From a virus: 25,841 nucleotides of DNA. How positions within the stretch are numbered: the stretch's first letter is position 1; each line of letters begins with the position of its first letter. The stretch lies in IMG/VR virus record IMGVR_UViG_3300001460_000173, positions 1-25,841 of that record, one strand, 5' to 3'. Below the pieces are notes generated by a model. The model was not told where the DNA came from and did not search any database. It was given only the letters and a program-made list of their open reading frames with translations. The translations under genes were made by a program, and so were the position numbers. Shown here in pieces: positions 1,652-23,774 of this stretch.

Positions 1652-1676
1652 CAACGCACAAAAAAAGACGCACAAA
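1652..1676 (-). promoter_or_regulatory. Two tandem copies of the late motif (putative promoter) before the tail fibre
   Basis: On the minus strand the segment contains TTTGTGCGTC (1667-1676) and TTTGTGCGTTG (1652-1662), 14 bases apart, between the end of the 1308-residue virion protein and the fibre ATG at 1604. The same 11-mer occurs before the small terminase (20654), after the large terminase (16963, one base different) and before the capsid gene (13248). The placement at block heads, always on the transcribed strand, suggests a promoter; direct proof is lacking. Confidence 0.5.
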
Positions 1677-11997: not shown

Positions 11998-12021
11998 AAA
12001 AAGAGGGGGGCTAATGCCCCC
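11998..12021 (-). terminator. Rho-independent terminator after the capsid block
   Basis: On the minus strand, GGGGGC-ATTA-GCCCCC forms a perfect 6-pair GC stem with a four-base loop, followed by CTCTTTTT. It lies six bases after the stop of the small capsid-associated gene and before tail tube A. This is the same place as the terminator after the capsid gene in T7. It would leave capsid transcripts more abundant than tail transcripts. Confidence 0.85.
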
Positions 12022-12304: not shown

Positions 12305-13114
12305 TTAGTTATTGTCTAGGACTTCGTAGATACCGTTATCATCGATAGCTACTGCGCCCATTGACATCATTGATGTTGAAAGGTGCGCGACCTTTTCAGC
12401 AACATAATTGATTTCAGTTGAAACATCTGAATTAACACCAATGCCAATTGCAGTTGTATGATAAGCAAAGTTCTTACCACCTGAGACAGCATTTGTAGAA
12501 AAGATCTTAAAGCCTAAGAACTCTTTCATTGTAATGCCACCTGCGAATGGTAGGTTTTGATCACCAACAAAATCAGATGAAGCAAATTCATTTATGTTGT
12601 AAAGATCTGCAAATCCTTTTGGAGACATTACTAAGTAACGCTGTCCATCTTCGGGAATGTCAGCAGCACCAAAAGTCTCAAATACTGTTAATAGATCTGC
12701 CTTACCTAAAGCAGAACCAGTGTCATGTATCTGAGTAGAGTTAGCTCCTGCATCCATTGCAGCAACAATGATTTCATCAGTCTTACGACCTAATGCAGCA
12801 GCAGAAGATTGTGTTACAGCCTGACGTTCATTGATGTTTGTTTTCAACTCATCAAGTTTGTCAATGTATTCAGCAGCATAGAAGTCGCTCATTGATACTT
12901 CAACATTGGTATGTGCAAGTTCCATTGGAGTTACATTACCATTACGAGATTTTGTTGACGCTGATCCAGTGCCTATTTTCTGGAATCGTGCAGTTGAACC
13001 TGACACATTTGTAGAACGAATAGTATTCCGTAGCTTGGAACCCATACGCTGATACGCCATGTGAACTTCAGTTTCAAACTGCTTTATAAAGGCGTTAGTT
13101 ATTGTATTAGCCAT
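12305..13114 (-). CDS. Major capsid protein
   Basis: A 269-residue protein placed directly after the scaffold gene. It has features expected of an HK97-fold capsid protein of the small podoviral type: an N-terminal helix (TITNAFIKQFETEVHMAYQR), a segment MSDFYAAEYIDKLDELKTN typical of the E-loop/spine region, repeated Ala-rich helix AAALGRKTDEIIVAAM, a loop RYLVMSPKGFADLY, and GFKIFSTNAV. It is shorter than T7 gp10 (about 345 residues). It is preceded by a 153-base leader carrying the late promoter motif. The ribosome site (AGGACT) is modest. Fold assignment is from pattern and gene order. Confidence 0.85.
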   Translation of the reverse strand: MANTITNAFIKQFETEVHMAYQRMGSKLRNTIRSTNVSGSTARFQKIGTGSASTKSRNGNVTPMELAHTNVEVSMSDFYAAEYIDKLDELKTNINERQAVTQSSAAALGRKTDEIIVAAMDAGANSTQIHDTGSALGKADLLTVFETFGAADIPEDGQRYLVMSPKGFADLYNINEFASSDFVGDQNLPFAGGITMKEFLGFKIFSTNAVSGGKNFAYHTTAIGIGVNSDVSTEINYVAEKVAHLSTSMMSMGAVAIDDNGIYEVLDNN

Positions 13115-13267
13115 TTTACAGTCCTAAATTGAGTTTCCGATTGCTACGAGTATCCACTCTTACATATCAATTCGGGTATCCAATAAGGGCCAATCAATGC
13201 GATATGGGTCGTAATAACCCATTCAAACAACAGTTTTATTCAAAATGCAACGCACAAATTAAATTTA
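13115..13267 (-). promoter_or_regulatory. Capsid gene leader with late motif and inverted repeats
   Basis: The longest gap in the virion block. The late motif TTTGTGCGTTG lies at 13248-13258 and is followed 13 bases on by ACTGTTGT, which also follows the copy before the small terminase at nearly the same distance (12 bases). Downstream, ATGGGT/ACCCAT (13204-13222, 7-base loop) and CATATC/GATATG (13163-13206) can pair. This would give the capsid message its own promoter and a folded 5' end; both are inferred. Confidence 0.5.
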
Positions 13268-14017
13268 TTAACCATGAAGTTTCTCAAAACCCTCATCAAC
13301 CTGCTTTATAAAGTCTGGATTTCTACGTGCAGGATGCCAATATCTTTCATCAGCCATAAGATCTTTAAGAGATTGTTCTGTAATTCTACCTACTGGCGTA
13401 CCATCAGATCCAATTGCAGGAGATTGAAGTTTAGCCATAATAAATTCTAATGTCTTAACCCCATCAGCAGTAGCAGCCAAATCTTCTATAGACTCTATAT
13501 GCTCTTCTGGAAAGAATTGCCTAGCAAATAAATCAACAGCTTCTAGTCTTACATTAGCATTATCACCAAGTTTTTTAACTTCTTCTTCTGGATTTGGAAG
13601 GTAAGCATCTTGAGCTTGCATTACTTTTTCTAATCCTTCAGCAAATTCTTCTTGGTCAAGACCATTAGAAAATGCGTGGTCAGCCCACCATCTTAATGTA
13701 TCATCATTTGTGTCAATACTATCTGTGTCTACAAAGTCTGGTAACTGATACTCGTCAGCAGAACTTGGTCTACCCTTAAAGCTTTCTTCTTCTATTTCTT
13801 TTAAAAGCTCATTTCTAATATCAACATCTTTAGTTCCAAGCTTAGACTCTAATTCTTTATAAGCCTTTGCTAAGTCTTCGCCTGTTTTATATTTTTCTGG
13901 CAACCACTCAGGACGTCCTTCCGTTTTGGTTTCCAAATCTTCAGCAACTAAAAAATCTTTTTCTTCTTGAGGTTGTGACTCTGTTGTTGCTTCTGTTTCT
14001 TGAACTTCTTCATTCAT
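13268..14017 (-). CDS. Capsid scaffolding protein
   Basis: A 249-residue, very acidic protein with a disordered start (MNEEVQETEATTESQPQEEK), then WLPEKYKTGEDLAKAYKELE, a motif widely seen in T7-like scaffolds, a helical middle, and a more basic C-terminus (ERYWHPARRNPDFIKQVDEG) that would bind the capsid protein. Position directly before the capsid gene and after portal supports the call. It overlaps the preceding small gene by 8 bases. Confidence 0.85.
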   Translation of the reverse strand: MNEEVQETEATTESQPQEEKDFLVAEDLETKTEGRPEWLPEKYKTGEDLAKAYKELESKLGTKDVDIRNELLKEIEEESFKGRPSSADEYQLPDFVDTDSIDTNDDTLRWWADHAFSNGLDQEEFAEGLEKVMQAQDAYLPNPEEEVKKLGDNANVRLEAVDLFARQFFPEEHIESIEDLAATADGVKTLEFIMAKLQSPAIGSDGTPVGRITEQSLKDLMADERYWHPARRNPDFIKQVDEGFEKLHG

Positions 14018-16926: not shown

Positions 16927-16961
16927 CATGTTTCCTTGCAAAACATAGATTTAAAATAATT

Positions 16962-18491
16962 TCAACGCACAAGTGACCATATGCTAGGTTTTTTAGCAGA
17001 GCTTCTTGGCTTTCTGGTAAATACATCAAAGTCTTTTCTAGCATTTACAATCTGTGCAGGTTTCTGATTTGACATTAAAGCACGACCTTCTCCTGCTCCC
17101 AACATTAGATACTGTAGTGCATCGTGTATGTGTGAGTACATATTCTTATCAGGTTTATCTGCGTATCGTTCACCGCTTACTTCCATACGTTTATAACCAT
17201 AGCCGCCTTCAAATCCCTTAAGAAGCTGAGAACAACGTCTGTCAATTAAAAACGCAGGTTTGCCTTCAACCATTTTATTAAGTTGCTGCGCCACTGATTC
17301 CAAGCGGAGATCCACCGAATTACTCGGGGCGGGAAAAGCACGTAGACCTGCACCCCTAAGTATGTGGAAAGGGGTAGATTCGTCCGTCTGCGCCCTAAAA
17401 TCACCTGCTGGATCACCATATATATAGACATCGGAAGCTTCAGAAAACCTAGTAGCAATTTCATTTCTTAGCACCTCTGCAAATCTAACAATGCCCATAT
17501 CAAAAGCAACAACCTCTGACTGTATTAACCATCTGTTTCTAACCTTTTGACCAATAACAGCAGCAGGAGTAAGGCCAAAGTCTATTCCTATATACAATGG
17601 AGTTCCTGCGGCTACTGGTATTTCTTCTTTAGCAACATGAGTTTCACTAGCAAACATTGGGTATACTGGCTTTCCATCTTTTATAGTTCCAAGTCTATTC
17701 ATTACATAGACATCAATCCAAGATTTAGTCTTACCTTGTATTAAGTTTGTATAATAATTCTGAAGCATGTTCTTTTTGTTTTCAGCCTTATCATTGGACT
17801 TATAATTATCTACCTCACCATCTTCATTGTATACTTCTTTCATGCCAGATGGCTGTGTAAAGAACTGCCAGTTATTAGGCTTAACCAACATCTTGGCCTG
17901 ATCTCTAGGAATATGATCTGGTACTGGAACTTCACCAGACATAATCGGCCACCAATGGTCTTCTTCTGGTGCGTTGGTATCTGCAATAACGCCTGTCCAA
18001 CTAGGCCCACCTTCACGCATAGAAGGGAATCGTCCAACCCTCATTGTGCAAGCATCAATAATACTCTTGGGTATCTCCCTTGCCTCGTTAATCCAGATGC
18101 CTGTTAGTTCGAGGGACAGTAGTTTTTTAACATCTTCTGGACGATCAAGAGCAAGGAAGATAACCTCTAGGTCTATGTCTCCTTTCTTTATGTGATGGGT
18201 ATAAGGCACAGACCAAATAAATTTACCCCATTCATTTTCTGGAAACCAATCAAGCCAAGTCTTAATAGTAGTCGTTCTAAGCTGTGGGTTTGTGTTTCTT
18301 ATGATAGCCCATCGACTTCTGCGTATGCCACTATCGTTTTTACTCTGAGAAAGAGCGCGTCTAAATACTTCGATGCAGCAACCAACAGACTTACCAGAAC
18401 CAACAGGACCGCGAATACCACGAAAGAATGTATCGTCTTTCATAAAAGTCTTTAGGACTTCACCATCAGGTTTGTATTTAAAGTCTGTCAA
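16962..18491 (-). CDS. terL: Terminase large subunit (packaging ATPase/nuclease)
   Basis: About 509 residues. Walker A GPVGSGKS lies at residues 28-35 and the Walker B-like segment GIWINEARE at 131-139, with Asn where Asp is common before the catalytic Glu. The C-terminal RNase H-like nuclease has acidic residues in YIGIDFG (D304), YGDPAGD (D360) and HIHDALQYL (D457). The protein drives DNA into the procapsid and cuts concatemers. No ATG starts the frame: TTG at 18491 (giving MTDFKYKPDG) fits the family start best, with TTG at 18509 as an alternative. Either overlaps the upstream small gene, so expression is probably coupled. Confidence 0.95.
   Translation of the reverse strand: MTDFKYKPDGEVLKTFMKDDTFFRGIRGPVGSGKSVGCCIEVFRRALSQSKNDSGIRRSRWAIIRNTNPQLRTTTIKTWLDWFPENEWGKFIWSVPYTHHIKKGDIDLEVIFLALDRPEDVKKLLSLELTGIWINEAREIPKSIIDACTMRVGRFPSMREGGPSWTGVIADTNAPEEDHWWPIMSGEVPVPDHIPRDQAKMLVKPNNWQFFTQPSGMKEVYNEDGEVDNYKSNDKAENKKNMLQNYYTNLIQGKTKSWIDVYVMNRLGTIKDGKPVYPMFASETHVAKEEIPVAAGTPLYIGIDFGLTPAAVIGQKVRNRWLIQSEVVAFDMGIVRFAEVLRNEIATRFSEASDVYIYGDPAGDFRAQTDESTPFHILRGAGLRAFPAPSNSVDLRLESVAQQLNKMVEGKPAFLIDRRCSQLLKGFEGGYGYKRMEVSGERYADKPDKNMYSHIHDALQYLMLGAGEGRALMSNQKPAQIVNARKDFDVFTRKPRSSAKKPSIWSLVR
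16963..16973 (-). promoter_or_regulatory. Late motif (putative promoter) overlapping the end of the large terminase gene
   Basis: The minus strand reads CTTGTGCGTTG, ten of eleven bases like the other copies. It overlaps the last codons (LVR, stop) of the large terminase gene and lies 37 bases upstream of the GNAT start, so it would start a GNAT-portal-scaffold transcript. Confidence 0.45.
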
Positions 18492-18672
18492 TTTTGTGAT
18501 CCACAGCAAACCTAATCATACGCTCAATCATATCAGGGGCAATAACATCAATAAGCTTATCAGCCTCTATGTTAGTCTGAAAATCTTTAGGGTAATGTTT
18601 AAAGTGTACCTTTTTTACAATAGTACGAAGTAACTCTCGATCACGCATAGAAATAGAATGGCTGAAACTCAT
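18478..18672 (-). CDS. Small protein before large terminase, unknown
   Basis: 64 residues, MSFSHSISMRDRELLRTIVK onward, with KKVHFKHYPKDFQTN, EADKLIDVIAPDMIERMIRF and ending AVDHKIDRL. It reads as a compact helical, partly basic protein. I recall similar sequences directly upstream of terL in marine podoviruses; function unknown. It overlaps the upstream gene by ATGA and the terminase frame by 14-32 bases. The N-terminus could instead be the internal Met at 18648 (MRDREL), but that one lacks a ribosome site. Confidence 0.7.
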   Translation of the reverse strand: MSFSHSISMRDRELLRTIVKKVHFKHYPKDFQTNIEADKLIDVIAPDMIERMIRFAVDHKIDRL

Positions 18673-20198: not shown

Positions 20199-20585
20199 TC
20201 ACGATAGGTCGATGGACACTTTAATGTCCCCAGCTACTTGCACCTGTGAGCGATCTATAGGCTTGAACCCAGCACGATCTAACAGATCCTTCGATGCTTC
20301 AAGCTGCACATACTCTGACTTAGCCCCACCTGATAACTGCACTACCCTGCCTAATGCTTTAGCTGCACTCAGTCCAAATGCCTCACTCATTGCTTCCATC
20401 AGGTACATTCGCACATGTGCAGTTTTCATAGCCTTGTATGCTGAGACTCTACCGCTATTGCCTTCAGCGTATCCTGCTTCATGTGCAGCCTTTGTCAAGT
20501 TACCACCATTTGATACATACGCTTCAACCAATCTACGTTGTCGATCAGTTAGATCACGCTTAGTCTTTACTGCAATCTGTGTCAT
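20199..20585 (-). CDS. terS: Terminase small subunit
   Basis: 128 residues from ATG 20585, chosen because GGAG lies just upstream (GGAGATAAA then ATG); a longer frame from 20684 lacks this. LTDRQRRLVEAYVSNGGNLT, KAAHEAGYAEGNSGRVSAYK and the following Met-rich helix have the form of the helix-turn-helix DNA-binding N-terminus of small terminases (ltekQ..FveaYv..gN.t.AA..AGYs), followed by an oligomerisation helix (SKDLLDRAGFKPIDRSQVQV). It would recognise the packaging site and hand DNA to the large subunit. Unusually, eight small genes separate it from the large subunit. Confidence 0.85.
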   Translation of the reverse strand: MTQIAVKTKRDLTDRQRRLVEAYVSNGGNLTKAAHEAGYAEGNSGRVSAYKAMKTAHVRMYLMEAMSEAFGLSAAKALGRVVQLSGGAKSEYVQLEASKDLLDRAGFKPIDRSQVQVAGDIKVSIDLS

Positions 20586-20628
20586 TTTATCTCCTGCACT
20601 GAACCCCCTCTCCCTCTCTCCCCCTTTC

Positions 20629-20664
20629 ATAGCACAACAGTATAAACCCTTGTCAACGCACAAA
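20629..20664 (-). promoter_or_regulatory. Late promoter region before small terminase (late motif plus sigma70-like elements)
   Basis: The late motif TTTGTGCGTTG is at 20654-20664 on the minus strand. Its last bases overlap a consensus-like -35 box TTGACA (20651-20656), with TGCTAT sixteen bases downstream (20629-20634) as a possible -10; TATACT also occurs closer. This is the only copy with a recognisable sigma70 layout, so it could be served both by host polymerase and by whatever reads the motif. Confidence 0.45.
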
Positions 20665-23283: not shown

Positions 23284-23299
23284 GCATATGTGCATATGC
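23284..23299. promoter_or_regulatory. Palindrome at the start of a regulator gene (putative operator)
   Basis: GCATAT-GTGC-ATATGC is a perfect 6+6 dyad whose left arm includes the start codon of the following gene. It lies three bases after the stop of the preceding helix-turn-helix gene. It could be an autoregulatory operator of one of the three DNA-binding proteins here, or an RNA hairpin that masks the start codon. Confidence 0.4.
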
Positions 23300-23569
23300 T
23301 GCGGCATGTTAAAAAGTTATTGGGATCAAATCCTAGAGAAACATCGCTATGTAGATATGCCTTTGCATAAAGTTTTTGTTGCTGCAAAGATACCTACCTC
23401 AACTTACTATCGAACAGTCAATGGACGTAGTGAAATAAGTTATGAGACTGCAAAGAAAGTCTATCAAACATTAGATAGATTGTCTAAGCGATGGCCTACA
23501 GGTTTGATTACACCAAAGAAAATCAATGGCGCAGTTTCAAAACTACACAAAAGCAACAGAAGTAACTGA
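23288..23569 (+). CDS. Small DNA-binding protein, Cro-like
   Basis: 93 residues. The segment 27-65 (HKVFVAAKIPTSTYYRTVNG, then RSEISYETAKKVYQTLDRL) has the shape of a lambda-Cro/XRE-type helix-turn-helix (A.i..stYyR...G..eisy.TA.kv...L). The C-terminus is basic. Start: ATG 23288 follows the upstream stop by seven bases but has no clear ribosome site; ATG 23306 (MLKSYWDQI) is an equal candidate, and would drop the odd MCICCG start. It overlaps the next gene by 44 bases. Confidence 0.65.
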   Translation: MCICCGMLKSYWDQILEKHRYVDMPLHKVFVAAKIPTSTYYRTVNGRSEISYETAKKVYQTLDRLSKRWPTGLITPKKINGAVSKLHKSNRSN

Positions 23570-23774
23570 GAGTTACACAGATCTTGTTGATGCTTTGATA
23601 GCAAGACGTAATTATCTTGGGCTATCACAGGAAAGACTTGCAATGGAGATTGGCTGCACCTTATCCTTAATTCACAAATGGGAACAATACAAACGTGTGC
23701 CATCTGGTTTCATGTTAACGTGTTGGTTAGATGCACTTGGCGCGAAGATCAAAGTCTGTTCGTACAAAGATTAA
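23526..23774 (+). CDS. XRE-family helix-turn-helix protein
   Basis: 82 residues with a standard XRE/Cro-CI HTH at about 22-72: LIARRNYLGLSQERLAMEIG followed by CTLSLIHKWEQYKRVPSGFM. It is a likely transcriptional regulator. It begins 44 bases inside the previous gene and ends 44 bases inside the next, without its own clear ribosome site, so translation presumably depends on its neighbours. No integrase or CI-like peptidase partner is seen here, so a lysogeny role cannot be claimed. Confidence 0.75.
   Translation: MAQFQNYTKATEVTESYTDLVDALIARRNYLGLSQERLAMEIGCTLSLIHKWEQYKRVPSGFMLTCWLDALGAKIKVCSYKD

Follow-up and report, generated by a model that had tools for sequence, protein, structure and literature searches.

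The 25,841-base IMG/VR virus record analysed here in full (the window) raises the question of how a phage of this type switches on its late genes. An 11-base motif lies at the heads of several late gene blocks, and an earlier note, made from the letters alone, had proposed that its copies form a set of phage promoters. In marine metagenomes, phages of the Hodr/MEP301 type are well represented; they have no RNA polymerase or recognisable sigma factor of their own, and the motif bears on how their late genes are timed.

Gene organization of the window

The nearest cultured phages were Pelagibacter phage EXVC031P Hodr (TerL 65%) and Methylophilales phage MEP301 (42%). Megablast of the window against phages gave no match, the Rfam search of the window gave none either and ARAGORN found no tRNA. 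The minus strand encodes, leftward from position 20585, the small and large terminase subunits, GNAT, portal and capsid, and also tail tube proteins, an internal virion protein and a tail fibre. Early-type genes (DUF932, HTH proteins, a PDDEXK nuclease and a replication initiator) are located on the plus strand, rightward from about 21000. The minus-strand blocks were labelled late from their gene content. Three of their genes serve as reference points:

20199-20585, minus strand: small terminase subunit, heading a late block (PHROG matches)
16962-18509, minus strand: large terminase subunit, TerL (PHROG matches)
12305-13114, minus strand: major capsid protein (PHROG matches)

Copies of the motif in the window

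The earlier note had listed three exact minus-strand copies of TTTGTGCGTTG, a copy one base off at 16963 and a variant at 1667, with no further copy elsewhere. All were found in place, the variant reading TTTGTGCGTC at 1667-1676, and the window holds no further exact copy on either strand. The copies precede the small terminase, GNAT, capsid and tail fibre genes, as had been claimed, and the ACTGTTGT reported downstream of two of them was seen at 12 and 13 nt. The sites, with the TG dinucleotides discussed below, are as follows:

20654-20664, minus strand: motif TTTGTGCGTTG, 68 nt before the small terminase ATG (20585), followed by ACA, which gives an overlapping -35 reading TTGACA
20635-20636, minus strand: TG 17 nt downstream of the small-terminase copy, start of the second element (extended -10-like)
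16963-16973, minus strand: motif copy CTTGTGCGTTG, 33 nt before GNAT (ATG at about 16929)
16944-16945, minus strand: TG 17 nt downstream of the copy at the end of TerL (CTATGTTTTG)
13248-13258, minus strand: motif TTTGTGCGTTG, 133 nt before the major capsid ATG at 13114
13228-13229, minus strand: TG 18 nt downstream of the capsid copy (ACTGTTGTTTGAAT)
1652-1662, minus strand: motif TTTGTGCGTTG, 47 nt before the tail fibre ATG at 1604, with no TG at 17-19 nt
1666-1676, minus strand: degenerate copy TTTGTGCGTCT, immediately past the stop codon of the preceding gene and in tandem with the copy at 1652

The CTTGTGCGTTG copy forms the last three codons of TerL and part of its stop codon (CTT GTG CGT TGA; Leu-Val-Arg-stop). 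At the small-terminase site another TG is found 2 nt beyond the 17-nt TG (TGCTATGAA), and the tandem pair before the tail fibre gene recurs in two relatives (G1 and G2).

Judged from the window sequence alone, the case for the motif is weak: allowing up to two mismatches there were 9 matches against 7.3 expected, and six 11-mers occurred three times on one strand, against about one per simulated sequence.

Distribution of the motif among related phages

The motif was searched for in 156 IMG/VR loci, some of them overlapping, which had been fetched with TerL and capsid, and in Hodr and MEP301. In the 156 loci TTTGTGCGTTG occurred 139 times on the late strand and TTGTGCGTTG 216 times, and neither occurred on the opposite strand; the reversed-sequence control gave 4 and 10 matches, respectively. 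Since these counts settle what the window alone leaves weak, the motif was accepted as real.

Up to five copies per contig were found in the longer relatives. In 13 longer contigs the copies were located almost exclusively at four homologous points, all of them heads of late blocks: 67-78 nt before the small terminase gene; at the stop codon of the large terminase gene, with the next gene beginning 33-50 nt further on; 133-145 nt upstream from the major capsid gene; and mostly 43-47 nt upstream from the tail fibre gene (33 nt in M19). The sole clear exception was a copy antisense to an early ORF (G5:248). The small-terminase site lacks the motif in G6, G7 and G8, and in G4 and G6 the first late copy comes after the small terminase gene instead of before it.

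The motif is nearly unchanged across more than 100 relatives of this common uncultured marine phage group. It is conserved in contigs of 35-51% G+C while the flanking sequences diverge, and a Rhodobacterales-MAG contig of 51% G+C carries three late-strand copies. The motif also offers a simple tag by which late operons of this group can be picked out in metagenomic contigs. No copy was found in 57 loci of Hodr-type relatives, and when 9-mers were searched de novo for a motif that might take its place in that clade, A-rich words alone came up.

A second element at fixed spacing

Site statistics were obtained from 40 exact, non-redundant sites. A TG was located exactly 17 nt downstream of the motif in 25 of them (background 7.6%, binomial p about 1e-18); the 15 sites lacking it include the tail fibre copy of the window, and some of the 15 have a TG at 18 or 19 nt. 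An unconstrained EM search over a 60-nt span placed a second element at the same offset, with a log-likelihood of 62.7 compared with 16.2 (sd 4.1) for shuffled sequences. The conserved region extends over about 37 bp, as two blocks separated by a variable spacer. The base preceding the motif is mostly A or T.

When the -35 hexamer is counted from the last TTG of the motif, the spacer is 17 nt long and the TG falls in the position of an extended -10. The -35 consensus was matched at no fewer than four of six positions in 33/40 sites, a figure that arises partly by construction, since the TTG lies within the selected motif. The octamer TTTGTGCG, immediately upstream from the -35, is invariant. 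The hexamer following TGn agreed with TATAAT at 1.7 of six positions on average, not above background, and its key second position is T (0.76), not A. Of the features of a sigma70 extended -10 promoter, the sites thus have a TTGACA-like -35 and a TGn at the optimal 17 nt, and they lack a TATAAT-like hexamer. A generic promoter scan did not flag the late-strand motif sites and gave fewer promoter-like matches than in shuffles.

Read as a promoter, TTGnnn, a 17-nt spacer and TGn is the geometry of bacterial extended -10 promoters, with a poor -10 hexamer. The putative promoter appears built for sigma70, though weak, and carries an additional invariant block upstream from the -35. It shares TTGnnn, the spacer and TGn with host sigma70 extended -10 promoters and differs from them in the TTTGTGCG octamer and in the hexamer.

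A literature search using the letters of the motif returned primer or oligonucleotide matches and binding sites of PhaR (AniA), the alphaproteobacterial PHB regulator, with no phage paper among the matches listed. The same promoters might accordingly be controlled by a host protein. PhaR binds TGCRNYGCA-type sites (PMC6201568, PMC12542648), and one strand of one S. meliloti phaP1 site has the sequence TTGTGCGTTGCAAT (PMC12542648), identical to many capsid-site copies of the motif. The two kinds of site have the letters TTGTGC...GCAA in common, at or near a -35. Related capsid genes are found on contigs of alphaproteobacterial MAGs; Hodr infects SAR11, and its clade does not have the motif. However, PhaR operators are palindromic, whereas the phage motif is asymmetric and conserves the left half only: TTGTGC is kept throughout, the right half-site GCA is found in 10/40 sites, and both the weak dyad TGC-GTT-GCA and the palindrome YGCRNYGCR are complete in only 10/40. 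The motif is moreover unchanged over the whole G+C range, probably in different hosts, and PhaR mainly represses PHB metabolism genes (PMC6201568, PMC12542648). Control by PhaR is therefore improbable, and we favour a regulator of phage origin.

Search for a phage-encoded RNA polymerase or sigma factor

The earlier note had compared the late promoters with those of T7-like phages and had offered two readers, a phage RNA polymerase or a phage-modified host polymerase. No T7-type RNA polymerase (PF00940) was detected in 17 related IMG/VR records, including the window, or in Hodr, allowing that fragments may miss genes; the positive control, HTVC019P, was recovered at 4e-106. MEP301 likewise gave no PF00940 match, and its authors found no RNA polymerase (PMC8024684). 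Sigma region 2 (PF04542) was found in 0/24 and sigma region 4 (PF04545) gave one sub-threshold match of 12 bits in a single contig. For Skadi, another pelagiphage, dependence on the host polymerase has been described by the authors (PMC10504331).

Given these results and reports, host polymerase is the default reader. The motif sites probably act as late promoters at which host RNA polymerase works together with a dedicated regulator. The proposal of a late-promoter set is well supported by the strand and position specificity, by the conservation across differing G+C contents and by the second element at fixed spacing, and its T7-like part was not upheld. With the T7/SP6-type late promoters of Autographiviridae such as HTVC019P the sites share a conserved repeat on the coding strand at the heads of late blocks; they differ in that no single-subunit RNA polymerase gene was found and in having two blocks and a spacer, longer than a T7-type promoter, instead of one contiguous block, about 23 bp long, that extends to the start site. 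The second of the two readers, a host polymerase modified by the phage, gave the best fit.

A phage sigma factor or polymerase so divergent that the profiles miss it could read the whole bipartite element. For sigma70 the -35 block is unusually long and invariant, the second block is not TATAAT, and the podoviruses phiEco32 and 7-11, whose late genes also have a dedicated promoter class, encode their own sigma factor (PMC8948821). Against this, near-complete contigs contain neither sigma region 2 nor a T7-type polymerase, the early proteins are small, and the single region 4 match is below threshold, so that in this respect the group differs from phiEco32 and 7-11. We regard such a divergent reader as very unlikely and retain host polymerase with a dedicated regulator.

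A candidate regulator

The proteins considered include two neighbouring products of the early region:

23526-23774, plus strand: XRE-type helix-turn-helix protein P0001, 82 aa, candidate regulator (PF13560/PF01381 above cut-off)
23288-23569, plus strand: 93-aa protein with STYYRT (fam19), HTH-like

Profile searches of six-frame translations found the XRE-type protein in 13/13 motif-bearing contigs; each of the other HTH families tested was missing from at least one. The STYYRT protein was rejected as a universal regulator, since G7 lacks fam19 and yet has three perfect motif copies, and the HTH family at G3:25002 (f38) and the HTH_39 proteins were rejected, not being present in every motif-bearing contig. 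An SSB-like early protein (fam20), found in the fuller motif-bearing contigs except M20 and absent from Hodr types, is a weaker candidate than the XRE-type protein.

The XRE gene overlaps the 3' end of the 93-aa gene by 44 bases in a different frame, and the pair is kept in many relatives, an arrangement which suggests coupled expression of the two HTH-like genes.

A structure model of the XRE-type protein, built from an alignment of nine motif-clade proteins only, had a mean pLDDT of 81.5 and resembled HipB, P22 c2 and the controller protein C.AhdI (Foldseek E 0.003-0.012). For several such XRE proteins the site of action is beside a -35. XRE proteins usually bind palindromes, a point against this candidate given the asymmetry of the motif. 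Alongside an intact motif the recognition helix reads mostly SL[IV]HKWE, and in M20, which has a frayed motif, it reads GLVGKWE. In Hodr-type relatives, which are free of the motif and also have an XRE homologue, it reads SLITAWE, SLVSLWE or SLVGDWE. This correspondence tracks phylogeny, and the link between the XRE-type protein and the motif is correlative, not proof. Tentatively, the XRE-type protein at 23526-23774 is our best candidate for the regulator of the late blocks.

Proteins of this size and fold, such as P22 c2 and HipB, are often repressors. The block overlaps the -35 itself and could therefore be a repressor operator; late genes would then be silent until the repressor is diluted or removed. 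The weak -10 hexamers suggest promoters that need help, not strong ones to block, and we consider such an operator unlikely. We infer positive regulation at the site instead, the need for a dedicated regulator following from the poor -10 hexamer.

Proposed organization of the late promoter

The overall explanation that we judge probable is a bipartite late promoter used by host polymerase with a dedicated regulator, for which the XRE-type protein is a tentative candidate. The motif would be its upstream half, with TTTGTGCG at about -43 to -36 running directly into the -35 (TTGnnn); the TGn extended -10-like element would follow after the 17-nt spacer, and the host RNA polymerase holoenzyme would initiate there. 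The dedicated regulator, presumably phage-encoded and made early, would be bound at TTTGTGCG, beside sigma region 4. The four late blocks, headed by small terminase, the post-terminase gene GNAT, capsid and tail fibre, would thereby be switched on together.

This arrangement resembles T4 middle promoters, in which a MotA box is combined with a sigma70 extended -10 through sigma appropriation: both have an asymmetric phage-specific box at the -35, a TGn downstream in many cases, host RNA polymerase as the reader and a location at several operon heads (PMC2988021). As in the MotA type, the box replaces or overlaps the -35. The block described here, unlike that of T4, overlaps a recognisable TTG -35 and extends upstream from it; its -10 is poor, whereas MotA promoters need a good one; and the genes are late, with a candidate regulator of the XRE type. 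No MotA or AsiA homologue was recognised among the early proteins listed.

In its most specific form, the proposal is that a widespread uncultured marine podovirus lineage uses a late-promoter code of its own, in which an invariant 10-bp block is fused to the -35 and TGn lies at 17 nt, and by which a single XRE protein of about 80 aa redirects host RNA polymerase to four structural-gene blocks. This stronger form is rather doubtful. If true, an XRE-only late-promoter code would parallel T4 sigma appropriation in minimal form, with one protein. With a near-invariant, position-specific element and a named candidate regulator, the timing question becomes testable in vitro using synthetic DNA and one small protein.

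Leaders and terminator-like hairpin of the late blocks

Two further features accompany the capsid block:

13115-13247, minus strand: capsid mRNA leader with covarying RNA structure, downstream of the motif and not part of it
12004-12021, minus strand: intrinsic terminator-like hairpin GGGGGCATTAGCCCCC-CTCTTTTT, then T-rich, closing the block of capsid and an 87-aa gene

In the capsid leader 94% of cells were paired, and 7 of 14 pairs showed changes on both sides. The covariation was 0.385, compared with 0.166 in shuffles and at most 0.145 in slid controls; the leader had no Rfam match. The structure could be a regulatory or stability element acting at the level of capsid. Terminator-like sites overall were not above shuffled expectation.

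The structured leader, together with the coding-strand location of the motif before late genes, would agree with a role of the motif in RNA, as a processing or translation signal. The 17-nt spacing to TGn and the overlap with a -35 are promoter features, and the predicted start lies downstream, so that the motif would be outside its own transcript. Given the fixed spacing, an RNA-level role is highly unlikely, and the bipartite promoter is preferred.

The small-terminase leader (20585-20653, minus strand) contains G-rich runs, AAAGGGGGAGAGAGGGAGAGGGGG, which recur in relatives; a packaging site is one possibility. TTGACA is kept upstream from the small terminase gene even in G7 and G8, where TTTGTGCG is lost.

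In the 43.9-kb G4 contig (L168-L170) the early region is present twice, the two diverged copies being about 29 kb apart; this contig may be a chimeric assembly. An early protein of the M19 contig (L258), encoded at 13165-13476 in the orientation of the late strand, contains a DnaA C-terminal DNA-binding domain (PF08299, 5e-17).
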